From assembly GCF_963678975.1 (NCBI RefSeq), contig NC_089277.1, positions 23,882,672 through 23,946,671 of the forward strand: 64,000 bases of DNA, written 5' to 3'. The DNA comes from Dysidea avara. Its lineage: Eukaryota > Porifera > Demospongiae > Dictyoceratida > Dysideidae. The notes beneath the pieces are model-generated. The model was not told the DNA's origin. It ran no database searches and saw only the letters and a program-made list of their open reading frames with translations. Each line of letters begins with the position of its first letter. Position 1 is the first letter of the stretch. The position numbers were made by a program, and so were the translations under genes. This document shows, piece after piece, positions 3,215-62,940 of this stretch.

Positions 3215-5025
3215 ACCATGTTCTTTACATTTACAAACACTAGAGGTAGCCAAGCCAACTAGAGCCTAGCAAGCCAGGTGGAAGTACAAAATACAAACAT
3301 ACTGCTAACTTGAGACTTGGTGTGCCAGCTGGCAACAATCCCAAAAACAAATAATCAGTAGTTTGTTGGTCTAGATCACTGTCTGGTCGTTTAACTGCAT
3401 TGTAGTGGGTGTCACCTGCTAGCTACTTTGATTGGCATTAAATAGAATGGTCGTATGGTTTCTATCACCTCCACAAAACACACCCATCCATTATACGATT
3501 GTCTCTTCATACAACATGGATTCTATTCCTAGTGAGTGCGAAGCCTTACACCTTGTAGTTTTCTTAAACATTATTTATTATTTATTTATTTATTTATTCA
3601 TTCATTATTAATGACATAATTTTAACCGCATTTCATATTATCTTTAGTACTTGGTTGCATAATTACTACTTCTTACCGTTTAGATCCCAGCTTCATTTCT
3701 TTCCAAATGTTTTACTTATATAACAACATCCCTACCTCCATTAGTCTACTCCTCTACATTGAGAGATTCAGTGGTCATATACTGGTCAGAAATACTACAC
3801 CAGCAGCAAAGGTTGCTTTTATAAGTGAAGGCTGGCCCCTGTTTGTAAACAGCACCCAAAATGCTACATATTAATCTTTACGTTTTTGTTTGCAGGTTGT
3901 ACGTTTGTTAATTTTACATACATCAAACCCACTGAATGGAAAGTAAGATGTAAACACAAAATTAAGTAATAAATTTCATAGGAGGAAAATTCTACACAGA
4001 GGTAAAAATGATTTATTGCTCATACACTCATCGTGATATATCAACATCAAATAACACTGCAGGTTCGCCGCATTTATCAAAAATTACACAACATACAATA
4101 TGTACATGTATGGTAAGGCCTGTGCAGGATACTAGTCCTGCACCCAGGAGGACTTGCCTGTAATGACTCCTAGTACCTGATTATAGTACACAGGTGATTC
4201 AAGGTTTCACTTTGTGGGCATGACCATGTATATGACAGCTGAAGGCTGGCTGTAGTGTGCGTGTGTGCGTGCGTGCGTGCATGTATCACTGCAAGCATAC
4301 TTCTTTATACAGCCTTATCATTTTAGCTTTATAAGACTTGTGCTTTAGAATCTAGGGTATTTGCAGTAATCAAAATATCGGACGGTATCAAAAGTGGTTG
4401 GACTAAAATATTATCACGTTCAGCACTACACTATAGTGGCATATGGGGATACGGTACATGTGTTTTGTAGTTCTATGTGACTTTAAAGGTTAAAGCACAC
4501 ACACAGTAAACACCATCCGAGTGCCAACTATGCCTTAGCAAACCCTACTGTTTTGTTTAGCACTCACTGCAGTTAGAACATTCAACTTTTAAGTGGCATT
4601 TCATGCATGCTAACCCTCCTCGGACATGTACACTTTTTTGAGCACCGTATGCGTAGATATGTACCAGTAATCCACCACAATCCCATCATATGCACGTGCT
4701 CAAGGACAGTACAATAAGTAGACAGATCACTGGGACTAAACACTTCGCACACATAAGAGGTAGCTACCATGAGTGGTTCATTACACTCATATTCAACCAG
4801 GATCACAATCAAACCTAGCAATCAAGAGGTTAATTTGTACTGAATCAAGTGATCAAGAAGTACCCAAAAGAGGCAATAAAGTGTGTGTCTTAGACAATTA
4901 ACCTAAACAAAATACTTTTGTATTACGCTGTCAAAAGATCACGGTTCTTTTTCAGGTGAAATCAAGGGATCAAGATTTTAGGTGATCAAAAATCATTATG
5001 GTCACTGATGGTTCTACAGGGCTAT
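3215..5025. other. Intergenic, no gene recognised
   Basis: AT-rich DNA with a TTAT/TTTA-type microsatellite near 3570-3610 and a short GTGCGT-type run near 4255-4285. No coding exon, RNA gene or clear transposon end was identified. Confidence 0.5.
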
Positions 5026-6779: not shown

Positions 6780-7470
6780 AGTTAGCTTCTTAAATATGGG
6801 CCTCAGCGACCTGCACAGAAATCGGTGCCTCAGCAATGGACAGTGCAAACTGGACCTGGCACCGTGAATGCACATAATTGCAGACCTCAACAATGAGAAG
6901 TTTAATTTACATCTCAGCCATCCGCAGCCATCCCATCACTATTCCATACGAAAGACTGTGCTTTGCACTCAAAAGGTTGGCTAATCTCTTATAAAACTGA
7001 GTAGCAGCATCGCCCATTCCACCAGTAGTAGTAAAAATTAAGGGAGTATATGAGGCATTCTCTACTCCATGAACCCGTTGTTGGTATTCACGTCTCTTTT
7101 CCTTGTCATGACATCGGTATGCATGCAGAGTGTAGGGGTTGATCTGAGGGAGCACTAGGTTAAAATTTCTGACATCAAAGTATGATCTCTCAAATCGTCC
7201 TTCCCAAAAACCATTTGCTGCAATGTCAAGCCTTGCGTTATCATCACGATTAGCTGTTTGGTATTGAAGGGTCTCACCAGAAAGAGGCTGAAGGTGGGGT
7301 TCAATGACAACATTGTTATAGACCTCGGAAAGTAAATTGGCAGTTAGATCACGTACTTCATTATGTCTCAGAAGGAAACCCGCCTTTTGAACAAGACAGA
7401 GCATGTTTTATGGTAAAAGAGTGACCACAGGTACAGGAAGTAGGGCAGGCAGATGGTAGCCAATGATAAT
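6780..7470 (-). pseudogene. Broken C-terminal (zinc-knuckle plus nuclease-like) part of a retroelement protein
   Basis: Read on the minus strand, three frames in succession encode one recognisable protein. First comes a zinc-binding stretch with C-x-C-G and H-A-L-x-C around 7380-7450. A frame change near 7380 leads to a segment with RHNEVRDLTANLL and a long conserved body (7404-6907). A second frame change near 6905 leads to LLRSAIMCIHGARSS (about 6880-6840). This order matches the C-terminal domain of reverse-transcriptase-associated proteins common in sponges and cnidarians, which carry a restriction-like nuclease fold; that family statement is from general knowledge. The two frame changes and the MITE cutting it at 7471 show it is dead. 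The upstream reverse-transcriptase part is missing, either lost or never copied. Confidence 0.6.
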
Positions 7471-13102: not shown

Positions 13103-16100
13103 TTAAGGCCAGTTTGGATCTTCTATAAGTCTTTTGGGTGCCTGGTGGGTGTGAGTTGAATGTCGTGGACTTGAACAGACTTCTGCTGAGGTACTTTGTT
13201 GTGGAAAAGTTTGCTGTGGTTGTTCAGGGGGTGCTGGTGTTGTTGATGGGAGCAAGGATGTTGCAGTTCTGCGTCGTAGGAACCTGCGGTTTCTTGTCAG
13301 GATTCTGCCATTTTGAGTCTTGATAAAATAGCGGTGGTGAGGACCAATGTCAACAACAGTTCCGTAAATGTCCCACATTTTCGTTTGTGGATGTTGCAGT
13401 GCAACGCGTGAGCCTATTCCAATGTCTGGTAGTGTGTGGGCATGGAGATTGTAATATGCTTGTGTTTGCTCCAATGAATTTGTAGCCTGTGTTTCTGCTT
13501 CCGTGACTGCTTTTTGCCAACATGGTAGAAAAGAGCGGTGGTGAGCTGGGAGTGAGTCTTGCACTGGTGTACCAAAATTAATAGTTTTTGAGCAAGTGAT
13601 AATCCATCCTTGCGAGATGGGGTGTTTCGGTACTGTAAGAGTGCACGGCAAAGCGCATCTTCATTGAGAGAACGTTTGTTCCAGGAAGTGGCAATGAGTT
13701 TTTTCATAGATTTTACCATGGCTTCGACTTTGCCGTTGCTTTGTGGGTAATATGGTGACGACACTTTATGGATAAAGCCCCACTGTCTGGAGAAGTCGTG
13801 AAAGCATTTTGAAGTGAATTGTGGCCCGCCATCTGACCACAGTATATCTGGCACGGCAGTGCGACAAAAGCATTGTCTCAGTACTCTAACAAGGTGGGAG
13901 CTGGTAGTGTTGTGGCCCATTGGGATTATGTCAGGCCAATCTGTAAAGCAATCAGCAACGATGAGGTAGTCCTGACCACCATAGCAACAAAAGTCTGCAC
14001 AGATCTCTTAGAATGGTCTACTTGGCTTGTCTTTGCACACAAGAGGTTCTCGAGGATTGGAGGGAAGGAGATCTTGACACTTTTTACATGAAGTGAGCAT
14101 GTTGTCGATGTCATTGTCCATTCCTGGCCAATAAACCGTAAGGCGCGCCCGTTGTTTAGTGCGTACAGTGCCCTGGTGCGATTCATGAAGATGTGACAGT
14201 GTGGTGTGACGCATAGAAGGTGGTATCAGTAGACGGCATCCGTAAACTATCAAATTGTCATCAATGGAAAGGTGCTCACGTGCATTCCAGTAGGGTCTAC
14301 ATGACTGTGGAAGCTGGCCGCGGTGATCTGGGAAGCCGTTGAGTATTATATTGTACAGCTGTTGGTATTCTGGATCCTGAGAAGCATGGTAGCGGACGTC
14401 TTGCAATTTCAAGCTTTCGTGGGTGTCAGTGATGATAGCTCTCAACTCTGTAATAGATAAGGCTGGTTCATTAGGCGAGTCATGCTCTGCAAGGGCATCA
14501 CTATTGTGAGGATTAGATACAGGATTGCGGGATAGAGCATCAGGGCCATCATTAACACTTCCCTCAATCCACTTTGCCGTAAAGTTATAAGACATCAGGC
14601 GAGACTTCAATCGTTGAAGGCGTGGGTTCTCAATTTCATCTAAGCGGCGGCTGTTGAGAATAGGGACTAGAGGGTTGTGATCAGTCAAGAGGCAAAAATG
14701 CTGGAGGCCGGAAAGAAATAGTTTGCACTTTTGGATGGCCCATGCGACAGCTAGCATCTCCAGTTCAATAACAGCATATCTAGATTCTGTGTCGGTGAGG
14801 AACCGGGACCCAGCCTGGATGAGGGTCCACTTGTTATTGGATTGCTGTTGGAGGATGAATCCAAGACCCTGTCTACTGGCATCAGTGCTGAGACGGGTGG
14901 GATGATTGAGATTGAAGAATGACAAGACCGGTGGCTTGGTGAGTGACGCCTTGGCTTTTGCGAAGGCTTCATCATGATCGCTAGACCAGAGAAAATCGTT
15001 TTTAGTACTCAAAAGTGGTCTTAGTGGTGTCAGGAGTGCGGCTATGGTGTCAGTGCTTGAGGACAATTGGTTTACTAAGCCAAAAAAGGAGCGAAGGTCA
15101 GTTCTGGTGTTTGGCTTTGGATATTGCGAAATAGCCGTAGTAATCGTTGTGTCCACTTGATATCCATCAGAAGATAACCGAAAGCCAGCAAAAGTGACTG
15201 CTGATTGAAAGAACTGACATTTATCCAGGTTAAGGGCAGTATTCTTCTCTACGCACCGCTGTAAAAACTGTCGCACATGAGCAGCATGGTCTGAAGTATT
15301 ATTGTCATAAATAACAATGTCATCAACTATGCGACGAAAGCCTTGTAAACCAGCAAAAGCTTCTGCCATTCTGCGGTCATAATGTTCAGAAATCGATGAT
15401 AGGCCATACGGGGCCCTGAGATATTTGAAACGACCTTGAGGGGTTATGAACGTGGTTAAGAGTTGACTGGACTCATCTAGTGGACACTGGTGGTATCCTT
15501 TCAGTGCATCTAGTACAGTGAATATTTTTGCATCTGTTGCTGCTATATCGGCCACAGCTTGAGCAGGTGTGGACGATTGATAGCGTTCTCTACGCACGAA
15601 CTTGTTGAGGTGAGATAAGTCTACACACATCCTGATGCGATCGCTGTTCTTCTTAGGGGTGACCACGATTGGTGCACACCACTCTGTGACCGTAGTGACT
15701 GGAGCAATGACCTTTTGTGACAACAGTAAGTCCAACTCATCTTTCAACTTGTCGCGGTAAGCGAATGGGATTGAACGTGGTGTCTTAATGCAAAAGGGTT
15801 TTGCATCTTGCGTGAGGCTAATGTGAAATTGCTCACCATCCATGGTTCTTATCTGGTCATCAAAGATGGATGGGAATTCTGTGATTAGTGTTTGCGACTG
15901 TGGTTGACTTGACTGTGGAAGGAAGGTTGTAGCATGTACATTCAGCTGTGGGCGAAGCTCTACATTACTAGGGCGTGGGTAACAGTCTGGTAGTATCCCT
16001 AAGTCCTTGGAAGCTCTCCATGAAAGTATAGTACCAGTGATATTTGGATAGACGTGCACATTGCTAGTGCATTGTCTCTTGCCGAGTGTGAAAGTGACAG

Positions 16101-17178
16101 GTAAGTATCCAAGGGGATACATCTTATGGCCATTTGCAGTGTGAGGGACGACATCCGAGGGGATGAGGTTATGAACATGATCGTTAAGAAGAGTTAACAG
16201 TGGTGGGCCAGCAGCTGAGATATCTGCTCCTGAGTCTGGCAGAACGTTTGTCGAGCAAGAACCATTCAGTGAAGTGAGGTGAATAGGAATGGTCGGAGCT
16301 GGGTCATTGGTGGCTACCTGTTTGATGGTGGATAACGTAGACGGTTGCGTCTCAAAGCCTGTGTTTGTGTGTACCTGAATTTGCCTTGTTGATGGCGGGA
16401 GGCTAGGATGAGATGGTGGCTGAACTTGTTTAGAGTGGCAAACACGTGCATAGTGGCCAACCTTCTGACAGTTGTGGCACGTGGAAGAGTAAGCTGGGCA
16501 GCGAATGCGGCCTCCTTGGTGCGGCTTGCCTCCACATCCTGGACAGTCGGGACTGGTGGGCTGAAGGCCAGCTCTCTTGTGATATAGTCCTTGTTTTCGT
16601 AAGGTAAGGATGGTGTCTGATTGTGGCTGAGAAATTGCAGAGCGTTGCTTCTTTGCAGCTTCTTCTGCTCTACATGTTGTGATGGCAGTATCTAATGTAA
16701 GATCTTGTCGCTGGAGCAAGTGTTCAACCGTGTCACCCTCTAGGATACCTTCGATGATCTGGTCCCGGATATTCTTTGCTGTGCATGCGGGTGAGCAAAA
16801 GCTGCAAGTCTTAACTAATTCACGAAGAGCCACCAGGTAGTCATCGAAGGTTTCACCACGCTGTTGGATCCGTTTCCGAAAGTTGCGACGCTCGACTGAT
16901 TCGTTGATGTGGCCGTCAACGTATCGTTTAATAGCGGCGATAATAGCTTGCGTGTCTTTACGCTGGTCTGTAGTTAGCCCGAGATTATCGACGATACTAA
17001 GTGTCTCACGTGAGAAGCACAGTGTTAATGCGTGCACTTGTGTTTCAGCTGACTCCTCACCTAGTCCGGATAGACTAACATATGAGCTCCATTGGGTCTT
17101 CCAAGCAACGAAGTCGGCGCCTCTGTCCACTTGGAGGTCGAGTTTGGGGAGATCGCTAAGTCTGAAGGTGTATGGCAT
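13103..17178 (-). pseudogene. Ty3/Gypsy gag-pol polyprotein, interrupted in integrase
   Basis: Starts with ATG at 17,178 and runs open for 1056 codons. Visible domains: gag-like N-terminus; zinc knuckle C-x2-C-x4-H-x4-C near residue 234; aspartic protease D-S-G-A-D near 315; reverse transcriptase with the V-D-D catalytic pair at about 619-620; RNase H with T-D-A-S near 764; and the integrase zinc-binding H-x-H...C-x2-C region near 990-1035. A TAA at about 14,008 interrupts the frame just before the integrase catalytic core, which continues in the same frame (13,920 onward, with W-S-D-G-G-P-Q-F and Y-Y-P-Q-S-N-G-K-V-E). A single-base frame change near 13,580 moves the C-terminus into another frame, ending at 13,103. 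Gag and pol share one frame with no programmed shift. No chromodomain was recognised. Confidence 0.9.
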
Positions 17179-17295
17179 CTCAGTGGAATGCTGCAGAGAG
17201 GAAATGCCCGAAACACAGTCTAATACAATGGGTTCACCTTAGCGGGTGCCTCTAACCGGCACCAGGGAATCAATCAGCTGGTTACAATAGAGTCG

Positions 17296-50145: not shown

Positions 50146-50154
50146 AATAACAAT

Positions 50155-50241
50155 TAGTCTCGCATGGCCTGACCCTTTCCGCGCAACCGCTTATTGATTG
50201 CAAATTATAAGCGCCGCGCTATAAGGGTCTGGAATAGTTCA
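50155..50241 (+). repeat. Left terminal inverted repeat of the reverse-transcriptase element
   Basis: 87 bp beginning TAGTCTCGCATGGCC and ending CTGGAATAGTTCA. It pairs with 53,655-53,741 at all but 8 positions, without gaps. It is itself an imperfect palindrome: GACCCTTTCCGCGC near one side and GCGCTATAAGGGTC near the other. Confidence 0.95.
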
Positions 50242-50475
50242 TGAACATGAAATTTTTCGACACGGTATTGGTGACAATTGATTGATTGGGTAACACCTAA
50301 GATACAAAGGTACAAAATGCAACGTGTGTTCCCTTGAAGCTTTAGTCTGTTTTGATCGGCAAATCCGCTTAAAACCTTTCGCCTACTTTCCCTGTAACTC
50401 GAGATGAACTGAGCTTGTTTGTCTTTATTCAGCCGTACTTGTTGAAGATTCAGTAGTAGGTAGAAGGAACAGAGA

Positions 50476-53352
50476 TTGGTGGTGAAGCGTCAGTCTCCCA
50501 CTTCTCCTTCACCACCTTCCTTAGCTTTCTCCACCAGTATTCCTTCTGATCCTTTAGAGTTAGCCCTTCTGTCAGCTTCTGCATGTTCTTTTGTTGGCCC
50601 TCTTCATCTTGAGTCTGAGGCTCTTTCTGTAGTGATGAATTATGTTATGACCTGTCCTGTCTCAACTGTTGTTCACATTCCCCGCAGTGTTCATCCTTTG
50701 CTAGCTAGAGTCTTGTCTACCGAGTTTCGAAATGCAATTTCTTCAGTCTGGGGCTTTATGCGTCTTTTTCTGTTTGCTAAACTGGCACTACGTATGCCTC
50801 CACTTCGTCAGCGCCGCCGTCGTTTTATTTTAGCTTCTGTTTTGCTAGACCGCCTTCATCTCTGGTCTCAGCCCGATGGTTTGTATAATCTTTGGAAAGC
50901 TATACAAGATGATTTACATGTCTCTCGCTCCAGTCACTGTATTCAGTCTTCAAAACACAATATTTCTCGAGCTTTGTTCTGGGCTCGGGAAGGTAGGTAC
51001 AGTAATGCTGTACAGTCTCTTACTTCTACTGGTGTGGCTGATAAGAATGATGATTTGGCATTTCAAGAGTTGCTTCAGCGGCATCCTGTCTCTGATCCAC
51101 CTTCTTGTTCGACCCCCAAGACTGCTTCTTTAGTTGTAGATGAATCTGCTGTATTAATATGTTTGAAAGGTTTTCCTCGTGGTACCAGTCCTGGTGCCTC
51201 TGGTTTACGGGCACAACACCTTCTTGATGCAGTCAGTGGCCACACTGCACCTTCTGCTGAACTTTGCCTTACCACCCTCACTCGTCTGATGAACTTTTTG
51301 CTTTCTGGAAAAGCTTCTCCATCGCTTGCCCCTTGGTTGTGTGGTGCCCCTTTAACAGCTCTTCTGAAAAAGAACGGGGGTGTTCGCCCTATTGCAGTTG
51401 GTGAAATTCTTCGTCGTCTTGCCAGTCGTCTGTGCTGTCAGTTTGCTCGTCCCTTTCTCTCTGACTTTTTCCTACCTTATGGTCAAGTGGGTGTTGGTAT
51501 CCCAGGTGGTCTTGAGGCAGCTATCCATGCTGTCCGTCATTCTCTTTCCCAATTTGGCAATGATGAATCTCTAGCTCTACTCAAAATAGACATGAAGAAT
51601 GCATTTAATGAATGTAATCGCTCAGCTTTTCTTGATGGTGTGTGTAAAGAGTTTCCAGAGATTTCCCCCTGGGTGTATTGGTGCTACAGTCAACCTGCTG
51701 AGCTGAGGTTTGGCCACAGGCGTATTCTTGCTTCCACAGGTGTCCAACAGGGAGATCCTCTTGGTCCCTTACTTTTTTCTTTGGTGTTGGTGCAATTTCT
51801 TCGTTCCATCTCTTTTAGTGAAACATGTCTTCTTAACCTGTGGTATTTAGATGATGGCACATTTATAGGTACTAGATGTTGTCTTCACGCATTACTTTCA
51901 CATTTTACTGAGTCGGGTCCCAGTTTTGGTCTTTACATCAATCTATCCAAGTGTGAACTATACTGGCCTTCTGGTGACAGTTCTTTTCCTAACTTTCATC
52001 CTGCCATCAAGCGTATCAACCCCAAGAACAGTGGTTTGGAGCTTCTTGGATCTCCTATTTGGGGACCTCCACAGTTTTACGATGCCTTTTTATCTGTTCA
52101 ATTTGATAAAATAGTTGCAATTCAGGATAAATTGGTTGACCTCGAGGACCCTCAAGTAGAGTTGCATCTGCTTAGGAGCTGTCTTAGCGTTTGCAAGGTC
52201 ACTCACCTTTTACGTTGTGTGCCATCTTCCTCTTTGGGTTCCTTTCCCTCACATTTTGACCTTAGGTTGCGAGAATGCCTTAGTAGAATCTTGTGTTGTG
52301 GAATTTCTGATAGTAGTTGGACACAAGCCACCTTGCCATTTAGGTTAGGAGGCTTGGGCCTACGTGAATCTGAGCGTTCTGCTGCTCCTGCATTTGTGGG
52401 GTCCTGTAATTCTTCCCGTATTTTAGTGTCGCGTTTAGTGGAAACTTTTGATGTTTTTATGCCATTTCCCGGGGAGGATTGTTCCCTCGCTTTCTTCGAA
52501 GGTATGTCTGTTTCTGTGTTGCAAAACTCCTCTCAAACTGACCTTCAAGCCATTTTAGATGATTCACTTTTTAAACAGCTTGTAAGCAGTTCCACCATTT
52601 GTGATCAAGCACGTCTGCGTGCTTTATCACATTCTTCTGGCACCAGCAGTGGTTGGCTTAAAGCACTTCCACAGCCTGCTTTGGGTCTAGCTATTCCTCC
52701 TCACGATATTACTATAGCTTTACGTTTGTGGCTTGGCATTCCTTTGTTCCCTTCTTTACCACTCTGTACTTGTCTATCTGTCATTGACCAGTTTGGTGAT
52801 CATCTGCTGGGGTGCTCTCATGGTCCCTTGAGGATCCAGCGTCATAATGCTTTAGTGTCTGTTGTTCACCATGCCTTGCTCCAAGATCACCCTGGTGTTC
52901 TTAGGGAGCAAGGCATTCCATCTGACCGATCTCGTCCTGGCGACGTATACCACCCTGACTTTCATCTTGGTCGTCCTGCCTATTTTGATCTCTCCGTCAG
53001 GAGTACCACTCAGTCTGCTGTCATATCTTCTGCTTCTTCTCAGGCTGGGGTGGCCGCTGCTGTTGGTGAGATAGCTAAGGACAACCAATACCAGGACATT
53101 GTAAATGATAATGGAGGAGATTTTATCCCTCTTGTATGTGAGACCTTTGGTGTTTGGTCACCATATGCCCTATCAATTTTAGGATCCATAGCTGACAGAA
53201 CAACTGTTAGAAACGGTTTACCTCGAAAGTTTGCTAGGCGCCAACTTCTCCAGCAACTGTCTGTGACTTTGTGGAGGTACAATGCAAAAATGATACTTCG
53301 CCAGTATTCGCTTACTGCTGAGGACGAATTTCCTGACTTTGACATTGGTTAA
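50476..53352 (+). CDS. Reverse transcriptase with C-terminal zinc knuckle and restriction-like nuclease domain
   Basis: 958 codons, uninterrupted. The open frame extends from 50,464. The first ATG in frame is at 50,635 (residue 54 of this frame), so either translation starts at a non-ATG codon (TTG at 50,476) or there, or an upstream exon is spliced on. A conserved block F-P-R-G-T-S-P-G-A-S-G-L-R lies near residue 235. The reverse-transcriptase core has catalytic D372 in K-I-D-M-K-N-A-F, G-V-Q-Q-G-D-P-L-G-P at 422-431 and Y-L-D-D at 457-460. A cysteine/histidine knuckle starts at C764 (C-T-C...D-H-L-L-G-C). The nuclease domain has R-P-G-D at 820-823 and F-D-L-S-V at 837-841, a PD-(D/E)xK-like layout. 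This architecture matches the early-branching LINE lineage with restriction-like endonuclease (R2-like in a broad sense): RNA copied into DNA at a nick made by the nuclease. No RNase H or apurinic endonuclease was seen. Codon frame and motifs are intact, so it may be active. Confidence 0.85.
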   Translation: MVVKRQSPTSPSPPSLAFSTSIPSDPLELALLSASACSFVGPLHLESEALSVVMNYVMTCPVSTVVHIPRSVHPLLARVLSTEFRNAISSVWGFMRLFLFAKLALRMPPLRQRRRRFILASVLLDRLHLWSQPDGLYNLWKAIQDDLHVSRSSHCIQSSKHNISRALFWAREGRYSNAVQSLTSTGVADKNDDLAFQELLQRHPVSDPPSCSTPKTASLVVDESAVLICLKGFPRGTSPGASGLRAQHLLDAVSGHTAPSAELCLTTLTRLMNFLLSGKASPSLAPWLCGAPLTALLKKNGGVRPIAVGEILRRLASRLCCQFARPFLSDFFLPYGQVGVGIPGGLEAAIHAVRHSLSQFGNDESLALLKIDMKNAFNECNRSAFLDGVCKEFPEISPWVYWCYSQPAELRFGHRRILASTGVQQGDPLGPLLFSLVLVQFLRSISFSETCLLNLWYLDDGTFIGTRCCLHALLSHFTESGPSFGLYINLSKCELYWPSGDSSFPNFHPAIKRINPKNSGLELLGSPIWGPPQFYDAFLSVQFDKIVAIQDKLVDLEDPQVELHLLRSCLSVCKVTHLLRCVPSSSLGSFPSHFDLRLRECLSRILCCGISDSSWTQATLPFRLGGLGLRESERSAAPAFVGSCNSSRILVSRLVETFDVFMPFPGEDCSLAFFEGMSVSVLQNSSQTDLQAILDDSLFKQLVSSSTICDQARLRALSHSSGTSSGWLKALPQPALGLAIPPHDITIALRLWLGIPLFPSLPLCTCLSVIDQFGDHLLGCSHGPLRIQRHNALVSVVHHALLQDHPGVLREQGIPSDRSRPGDVYHPDFHLGRPAYFDLSVRSTTQSAVISSASSQAGVAAAVGEIAKDNQYQDIVNDNGGDFIPLVCETFGVWSPYALSILGSIADRTTVRNGLPRKFARRQLLQQLSVTLWRYNAKMILRQYSLTAEDEFPDFDIG

Positions 53353-53654
53353 GTTAAGTACGTATAGGTAGTAATAAGTATATAGTTAGGTAATAAGTAG
53401 TAGTATGTTGTAGTTTTCAGTATGTAATATTATGGCTTCATTTGTTATTGTATTCATTTGTATGCTCGTTTAAAAAATAATTATCGTTGTGATGTTGAAA
53501 AAAAAAGGAAAAACCTACACGGGTCGATACTCGTCATCCCCAGAGGCCTTCTTCAGTTCATTCTTCAGTAATCAGATTTCTTTGGGGATTAAGGGATCGC
53601 GTGAGCCAATTTACACTCCCCAACCACTGGGGATTGTAGATTTTTTTAAATACG
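53353..53654 (+). other. 3' untranslated region and possible poly-A tail of the reverse-transcriptase element
   Basis: After the stop at 53,352 comes AT-rich DNA with repeated GTAATAAGTA motifs, then GATGTTGAAAAAAAAAGG at 53,493-53,510. The A-run may be an internal poly-A tail. Beyond it, CCTACACGGGTCGATACTCG and CCCCAACCACTGGGGATT lead to the right TIR. Confidence 0.5.
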
Positions 53655-53741
53655 TGAACTATTCCAGACCCTTGTATCGCGGCGCTTATAATTTACAATC
53701 GATAAGCGGCTGCGCGAAAAGGGTCTGGCCACGCGAGACTA
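53655..53741 (-). repeat. Right terminal inverted repeat of the reverse-transcriptase element
   Basis: Inverse of 50,155-50,241 with 8 mismatches and no gaps; it ends GGCCACGCGAGACTA. The mismatches show the two arms have diverged independently or came from different copies. Confidence 0.95.
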
Positions 53742-53754
53742 AATAACAATTGCG

Positions 53755-57816: not shown

Positions 57817-59105
57817 TAGTCTCGCAGGCCAGACCCTCAGGGGCGTAGCCAGCCAATATTTGATGGTTGGGCATAACATCAACTTAGTTAACTACACACA
57901 CGAGAAACACGCTCACTTTTAGCTATGTGAGACATTTAATATCAAAGAAAAATGAAAAGTGTATGCACACATGGCCTACACCTACCTATGCTATAGTGTA
58001 AACAAATGCTGCTTGCATGCATGCAAACATTTACTAGCTATATGCTATTCTATTAAACTTGTAGGGCAGGAATCCACCAACGATCGTCGTAGTCGAGCAT
58101 CACGTGACATCAAACTACTGAACCTAGATCTACAAGAACAAACAATGCAAACAGTTTATCACATATTTACTACAATTAACTGGCAGTATAGCTTACAGAC
58201 CAACCACCACAGTGATATGTAATGCTTTTTCAAGTAAACGCCACATGGCCCAAAATAAAGACCGGCGGCGCTAATTTATGAACTATAATGAATCTTATCA
58301 CAAATATCGGCATGCCAAGAAAGCTTAACTTCGTCCCAGACTTATTGTAAAGGATCCGGTGTAAATCACAACTCGGTTAATCAGTACAAATTGTGCACGT
58401 GACACTTTATAATGACGTGACCTTTCCTCCATTTCCAGCTCCATTTGCATATGCCATTATTGTTATCTAGAATCTAGAAGAGTACGTTATCCCATTTTCT
58501 TTCATCAGCAGTAAGTTAGGCTATACGGTACTTTCCTTATCAAAAAAATACGCTTAGTGACAAGTCCACTGAAACGAAATCTTTTGCTGCCAGCACCATC
58601 CACACTGAATCCTACTGACGATTATCACTCAATGTGAATTAGATATACAGTTCGACTCCATTTTAAATTTCGAATTTAAACCGCCAAGGAGCATGGCACG
58701 TGCGGCTACATGAACTGTAATTATAGGGACTTCCTAAGGGATTTTCCTAGTAATGGATCACGTGATGAACCATCTATCTCGATCTCTCTGCTTCGAAGTC
58801 ATGATTCAACAAATGAGGTATACGTTTACGCTTTACAGTATTAAAGTTGGGTTGTTTTGTTTGCTGCTGTGAATCCTCGCATGAATTTTAAGCTACTTGT
58901 GATGGTTGGGCAAAAGTTTGTGATGGTTGGGCAAGAAAGTGTGATGGTTGGGCAAATGCCCGCCCATGCCCACCCTTGGCTACGCCACTGCAGACCCTAC
59001 TCCACGCAGGGCGTTATCACTTTCAGTATAAGCGCCCGCGCGGAAGGTGTTTAGTACTGAAAGCGATAACGCCCTGCGCGGAGTAGGGTATGGCCTGCGA
59101 AACTA
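57817..59105. mobile_element. TAGTCTCGC-type MITE interrupted by a hAT-type element
   Basis: The left end TAGTCTCGCAGGCCAGACCC and the right end (inverse, TAGTTTCGCAGGCCATACCC) share about 50 bp once the inner insertion is removed, including AGGGCGTTATC and CTTTCAG. Its terminal 20 bp resemble the TIR of the reverse-transcriptase element. No TSD was found at the outer ends. Confidence 0.75.
57838..58990. mobile_element. 1,153-bp hAT-type non-autonomous element
   Basis: The ends are CAGGGGCGTAGCCAGCC and the inverse TTGGCTACGCCACTG. A perfect 8-bp TSD CAGACCCT flanks it (57,830-57,837 and 58,991-58,998). GATGGTTGGGCA occurs at the left and three times near the right end. No transposase was seen; open frames inside are not recognised. 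Confidence 0.9.
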
Positions 59106-62656: not shown

Positions 62657-62940
62657 TAGTCTGGCGCCGCCCGCCCCTTCGCAAAAAGTAAGGGTCTGGA
62701 GAAATACAAATACCTAATCATTTCAAAAGGAATTCAATTAGACAGCGTACGTAATGCTTGTTACGTCAGATGATTGCACTTCAATTCGAACAAAAGCATT
62801 GTGTTGCCAAGGCGATTTCTGTATGAACGTCATTGGCATGCACTAATTGGCTAGCGCCGAATCTGGGCGCTAGAAATGATTTAGTATCTGTATTTCACCA
62901 GACCCTCACTTTATGCGAAGGGGCGGGCGGCGCCAGACTA
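62657..62940. mobile_element. 284-bp MITE with TAGTCTGG ends and 9-bp TSD
   Basis: TIRs of about 40 bp begin TAGTCTGGCGCCGCCCGCCC and include CTTCGCA and AGGGTCTGG. A perfect 9-bp TSD AGAGGAATA flanks it (62,648-62,656 and 62,941-62,949). End pattern and TSD length match the reverse-transcriptase-bearing element at 50,155-53,741, suggesting mobilisation by the same or a related transposase. Confidence 0.9.

Follow-up and report, generated by a model that had tools for sequence, protein, structure and literature searches.

The 64,000-nucleotide stretch of the Dysidea avara genome analysed here (contig NC_089277.1, positions 23,882,672 to 23,946,671; hereafter the window) holds a 3,587-bp unit, window positions 50155-53741, in which a reverse transcriptase gene lies between terminal inverted repeats (TIRs). 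We find that this unit is almost certainly a long interspersed nuclear element (LINE) nested inside an ordinary miniature inverted-repeat transposable element (MITE), that is, the product of two unremarkable insertions in the same place. A preliminary description of the sequence had offered such a landing as one of two possibilities, and it is supported by uninterrupted copies of the MITE and by a duplication, AAGGAA, made by the LINE itself. What may be new is confined to the parent families of the LINE, the full-length members of which begin with a SAND domain; the MITE-LINE package itself is ordinary.

The TIRs (50155-50241 and 53655-53741) share 79 of 87 positions in an ungapped alignment, in agreement with the 8 mismatches first described, and the best match in 200,000 random pairs of 87-mers from the window was 44 positions. 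Both flanks of the unit carry a perfect 9-bp target-site duplication of the MITE, AATAACAAT, read from the sequence at 50146-50154 and 53742-53750, again as first described. The frame between the TIRs (50464-53352) is open for 962 codons from stop to stop, approximately 954 of which derive from the retrotransposon, and its first in-frame ATG is residue 58. It encodes a reverse transcriptase domain, RVT_1 (Pfam E 4e-13, frame residues 302-501), at 51367-51966 on the plus strand. The C-terminal region at 52765-53349, on the same strand, has conserved residues, assigned by eye, that we take to be a CCHC motif and a restriction-like endonuclease (RLE) motif. This region gave no match in a Pfam scan of the window frame, and its profile match to the R2 element is colinear but weak, at most 4.5 bits. 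A fold prediction for the window protein had a mean predicted local distance difference test score (pLDDT) of 36.7, and the model was not used. The gene had been called intact; the long open reverse transcriptase frame is real, but the N-terminus of the parent protein, approximately 436 codons, is missing from it.

The genome searches were run on the same 551-Mb assembly that the window comes from, with the best-ranked candidates scored. A search with the left TIR gave 40 matches, the best 40 of 302 candidates, and 30 of the matches were retrieved as loci (numbered with the prefix L). In uninterrupted MITEs the left part of the unit (50155-50469, plus strand, including the left TIR) and the right part (53505-53741, plus strand, including the right TIR), unit positions 1-315 and 3351-3587, abut with an overlap of 6 nt. 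Joined to each other, the two parts give alignments of 500 nt or more with 25 of the 30 TIR loci, at 90.8-96.3% identity; the five outside this alignment are L031, which is the window itself, L047, L050, L051 and L060. The 25 loci are 22 distinct elements, because L033 and L037, L045 and L046, and L053 and L054 are in each case the two ends of one element. Since these copies span the position of the gene without interruption, it is the LINE that interrupts the MITE; contiguous MITEs of this kind were one of two observations that the preliminary description had named as speaking against a packaged gene.

A perfect 9-bp duplication flanks 11 of the 12 MITE loci for which the ends were checked, the exception being L048. 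As L033 and L037 are one element, this corresponds to 10 of 11 checked elements. The uninterrupted copies and their 9-bp duplications identify the outer element as an ordinary, non-autonomous MITE of approximately 546 bp with 87-bp TIRs. It is short and non-coding, has a duplication of fixed size and occurs in many similar copies, and the window copy differs from other MITEs in being interrupted by a LINE. Two nearby MITEs with TAGTCT ends had also been pointed out. The one at 62657-62940 is a TIR element with 68-nt arms of 91% identity and a 9-bp duplication, AGAGGAATA. For the other, at 57817, no partner end was found in a scan for TAGTCT[CG] ends at 60-6000 bp with at most 1 mismatch in 9.

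The search with the TIR, proposed at the outset as a way of finding both MITEs and autonomous elements, also returned a candidate autonomous partner. In L061 (G000:C3:5065626-5070908) a TIR pair, 98-99% identical to that of a MITE copy, encloses 5283 bp and is flanked by a 9-bp duplication, AGTAAGAGT. Two of its frames encode DUF6589 (Pfam E 1.1e-7 and 3.8e-28), and two frames on the opposite strand encode Helicase_C (6.9e-13) and DEAD (1.3e-7) domains. No reverse transcriptase was found in the seven frames scanned of the 11 listed. Excerpts of the literature on AcademH transposons report duplications of 9 or 10 bp (PMC10045372) and a helicase (PMC10045372, PMC10799480). By its TIRs, 9-bp duplication and helicase the candidate partner is consistent with AcademH, no more; its second protein is DUF6589. 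A literature search for DUF6589 listed no publication with that term.

The inner element is a LINE with a putative RLE-type C-terminus, cut short at its 5' end. A protein search of the genome with the window gene gave 56 match rows for the best 47 of 3351 candidates, and 30 LINE loci were fetched, the window's own included. In the other 29, nothing matches the unit before unit position 335, save short TIR-like hits in L010 and L030, and many of the matches end near unit position 3272. Where the window copy breaks off, other copies continue upstream as LINE. Unit position 335 corresponds to nt 1502 of the copy in L002, which has its ATG at nt 193 and encodes 1390 codons without a stop; by comparison with L002 the window copy is therefore a fragment.

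By sequence and alignment, the LINE copy occupies 50489-53474 on the plus strand, with a 3' end uncertain by a few nt (53474-53478), and is followed by an A-rich 3' tail and the insertion junction (53475-53504, plus strand). AAGGAA stands on either side, at 50464-50469 and 53505-53510. We read it as the duplication made by the inner insertion because it is exactly the 6 nt by which the MITE halves overlap in uninterrupted copies. Between the left AAGGAA and the LINE lies a 19-nt filler (50470-50488, plus strand) that occurs in neither the aligned MITE copies nor the LINE copies, and it has no match with up to 4 substitutions on either strand of L002-L005. By eye, 10 nt of the filler look like the neighbouring start of the LINE in reverse complement.

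Similar marks, an A-rich tail, variable duplications and variable 5' truncation, occur among other members of the LINE families. The copies in L002 and L016 have a common start just upstream of the ATG, and those in L003, L005, L010 and L019 start further in. Duplications were sought for eight copies. L005 has a candidate of 8 nt and L004 one of 10 nt that is not flush with the junction, whereas L002, L003 and L019 have none of at least 6 nt and the L016 locus is without the 3' end; matches in L009 and L010 are confounded by repeats, although ATCGATAAG is visible by eye in L010. From the AAGGAA duplication, the tail and the anatomy of the copies we infer that the inner element was inserted by target-primed reverse transcription.

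The unit would thus have arisen in two steps. In brief, the MITE would first have inserted, presumably mobilised by the transposase of a related autonomous element, and have made the AATAACAAT duplication. The LINE would then have inserted near the middle of the MITE, leaving AAGGAA on both sides and an A-rich tail, with its 5' third absent. The divergence of the two parts agrees with this order. Identity to other copies reaches 99.3% for the LINE part but 96.3% for the MITE part, which fits the later arrival of a LINE in an older MITE.

We found no sign that the composite is a repeated unit with common internal junctions among the candidates scored. The left junction (50400-50530) is matched end to end in the window only, among the best 40 of 117 candidates, and so is the right junction (53430-53560), among the best 40 of 77. 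Gene copies are mostly without TIRs, the second of the observations named beforehand: in only 2 of the 30 LINE loci, the window and L010, is the LINE enclosed by TAGTCT ends and a 9-bp duplication. The LINE loci extend only 1500 nt past the protein match, so some outer TIRs could have been missed. The undescribed mobile-element organisation that had been envisaged is thereby withdrawn; nesting explains the arrangement.

Several points weigh against this reading. As the searches scored only the best-ranked candidates, a second copy of the composite could have been missed. The LINE copy in L010 is likewise enclosed by TIRs, there with CGATATCAT as the 9-bp duplication; as a raw count, two of the 30 fetched LINE loci are thus inside MITEs. 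The 19-nt filler at the 5' junction is accounted for by neither MITE nor LINE copies. As regards L010, its MITE is much shorter, the insertion point is different and so is the 5' end of the LINE. On these differences a common origin of the two TIR-enclosed copies was rejected, and we read L010 as an independent nesting.

The two nested loci could also reflect a habit, namely a preference of the LINE family for such MITEs or for the palindromic arms as targets, and three further loci have MITE-like sequence in their flanks: L030, with a 141-bp MITE approximately 210 nt downstream of the LINE match, and L015 and L012, with weaker matches. We consider such a preference unlikely. This single 64-kb window holds two TIR elements that have TAGTCT ends and 9-bp duplications, so the elements may simply be dense, and 20 3' flanks of a related LINE family (see below) have no common target, 2 of the 20 ending in the same repeat. 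Very improbable, in our view, is a composite that formed by nesting and later moved at least once as a unit via the MITE TIRs, such that the outer duplication postdates the LINE. The TIRs and outer duplication are well preserved and a single locus cannot date that duplication relative to the inner insertion, but neither junction has a second copy among the scored candidates, and the MITE part is more diverged from its relatives than the LINE part, as it should be if the MITE is the older of the two and the LINE entered it afterwards. That a DNA transposon family carries the reverse transcriptase as cargo or mobility machinery and moves the 3.6-kb unit whole, the other possibility first put forward, retains next to no probability: the TIRs, the 9-bp duplication and the long frame are all real, and L010 is a second reverse transcriptase copy between related TIRs, but uninterrupted MITEs span the position of the gene and both junctions were found in the window only among the scored candidates, on which grounds we reject it, and in addition the reverse transcriptase copies have their own ends and flanks, the window copy is 5'-truncated, and the candidate partner L061 has the same TIRs and no reverse transcriptase in the frames scanned. 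A MER6 element with a V domain (PMC6887750) is similar in having retroelement-derived sequence inside a TIR element; according to the title of that paper the sequence spread with the DNA transposon, whereas the composite in the window was found once.

Nesting of a truncated LINE in the MITE directs attention to the full-length relatives of that LINE. The protein of L002 (L002:1498-5670, minus strand) begins with a SAND domain (PF01342, E 5.7e-14, 52 bits against a cut-off of 22). This is followed by repeats, a C2H2-like finger below the cut-off (19.7 against 25.2 bits) and the reverse transcriptase. The order in a full-length protein, judged by sequence, is SAND, low-complexity linker, C2H2-like finger, reverse transcriptase and CCHC/RLE-type end. 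By eye, the linkers of L002 and L025 contain in-frame tandem repeats before the finger, with unit sequences that differ between the two. The N-terminus of L002 matches five solved structures at E 2e-8 to 0.0028, namely 1ufn (a putative nuclear protein homolog), two SP140 entries, SP100-B and GMEB1.

Of 9 further N-terminal frames, 8 have a SAND domain above the cut-off. The exception is L011, which had no hit at E 0.01 although its frame contains the KNWK stretch. SAND and reverse transcriptase share one open frame in L002 and L006, and in other copies this frame is interrupted between the two domains. Over a 47-codon stretch of SAND, the ratio of nonsynonymous to synonymous substitution rates (dN/dS) between subfamilies runs from approximately 0.12 (L002-L018) to approximately 0.31 (L018-L025), values that are rough since dS is at least 1.6 in the comparisons with L025. 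The near-identical L002, L006 and L009 have too few changes for an informative SAND ratio, and for the L014 reverse transcriptase dS was not computable.

A genome search for SAND gave 107 matches (132 candidates scored). Four loci outside the window's family, L062-L065, were chosen for their long frames, and in L062 (136-3504, plus strand), L063, L064 and L065 SAND and reverse transcriptase stand in one frame, by eye. The Pfam run among these four, made on L062, gave SAND at 1.9e-12 and RVT_1 at 1.2e-7. L062 and L063 are 99.7% identical over 3450 bp, end in A-tails and have duplications of 18 and 8 bp. Being nearly identical yet flanked by different duplications, they place SAND within the mobile unit. 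Between L062 and L002 the identity is 26% across the 709 residues from the reverse transcriptase to the C-terminus, and 46% across 81 SAND residues. L064 belongs to a third family, with 56% identity to L062 and 28% to L002 over the alignment. By sequence comparison there are at least three diverged families of SAND-bearing LINEs, and the window copy descends from one of them while lacking the SAND domain. Elsewhere in the window, a 166-codon frame at 6907-7407 (minus strand) aligns with the C-terminus of L062 at 50% identity over 151 residues and has no Pfam match.

A profile built from five SAND-LINE proteins had R2 proteins as its best match among solved structures (E 6.9e-10) and matched SAND structures too; a single-sequence search with the window protein reached R2 at E 0.26 only. 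With RVT_1 and the profile match to R2, the reverse transcriptase is of the LINE type. The C, C, H, C and HPD residues are conserved across the LINE subfamilies, and Pfam scans of the long L002, L025 and L062 proteins found no apurinic-type endonuclease. The SAND-LINEs resemble R2 and other RLE LINEs in their reverse transcriptase, in the lack of a detected apurinic-type endonuclease, and in a C2H2-like finger, below the cut-off, before the reverse transcriptase; a putative C-terminal CCHC followed by an RLE-type motif, in colinear order, is a weak further similarity. They differ in the N-terminal SAND domain. R2 has a zinc-finger/Myb front end at its N-terminus, and SAND is a module with which nuclear proteins of animals read DNA and chromatin.

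According to the source excerpts, R2 targets 28S ribosomal DNA, and most, not all, RLE LINEs are site-specific (PMC4640811). The 3' flanks examined here belong to the 20 copies of the second family (that of L062) that reach the C-terminus, of 46 match rows. All 20 have the same end motif, and in 18 it is directly followed by at least seven A. These 20 flanks have no common target that would correspond to the 28S ribosomal DNA of R2; the commonest 7-mers are A-rich and occur in at most 5 of the 20, and no site-specific insertion was apparent in this family. Raw sums of CpG over the 20 flanks are 56 in the first 50 nt against 39 in nt 100-150. Two of the 20 copies, L071 and L079, apparently end at an identical position within one repeat. 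Beside other SAND-LINE copies, in the 5' flanks of L002 and L064, similar sequence was seen by eye. A shared target, a nested repeat or a duplication could each account for this.

Given what SAND does in other proteins, the domain probably has a role in DNA or chromatin recognition in these LINEs and may guide insertion. We tentatively suggest, with somewhat less than even confidence, that the truncated gene belongs to an undescribed assemblage of SAND-first, RLE-type LINEs in which SAND may serve target or chromatin recognition in place of the R2 front end. A narrow literature search, judged by titles and the openings of abstracts, found no publication on a SAND-bearing retrotransposon; the publications listed by broader searches do not contain the term SAND domain, and a search on RLE non-LTR (long terminal repeat) elements in sponges found nothing. 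As far as this limited search reaches, the SAND domain may be previously undescribed in LINEs.

Apart from these elements, the window contains long adjoining frames at 13103-17238 (minus strand) that by eye resemble an LTR-type retrotransposon in its gag-pol and integrase parts.

For the unit itself, nesting explains the packaged reverse transcriptase, and a single copy that has TIRs, a perfect duplication and an open frame can be deceptive. The value of the locus is as a pointer to SAND-bearing LINE families, the distinctive part of which it has lost. An in-frame fusion of SAND to a reverse transcriptase, shared by several diverged families, would extend the N-terminal parts known from LINEs by a chromatin-reading module, and it suggests a hypothesis, open to testing, for the choice of insertion sites by these elements.

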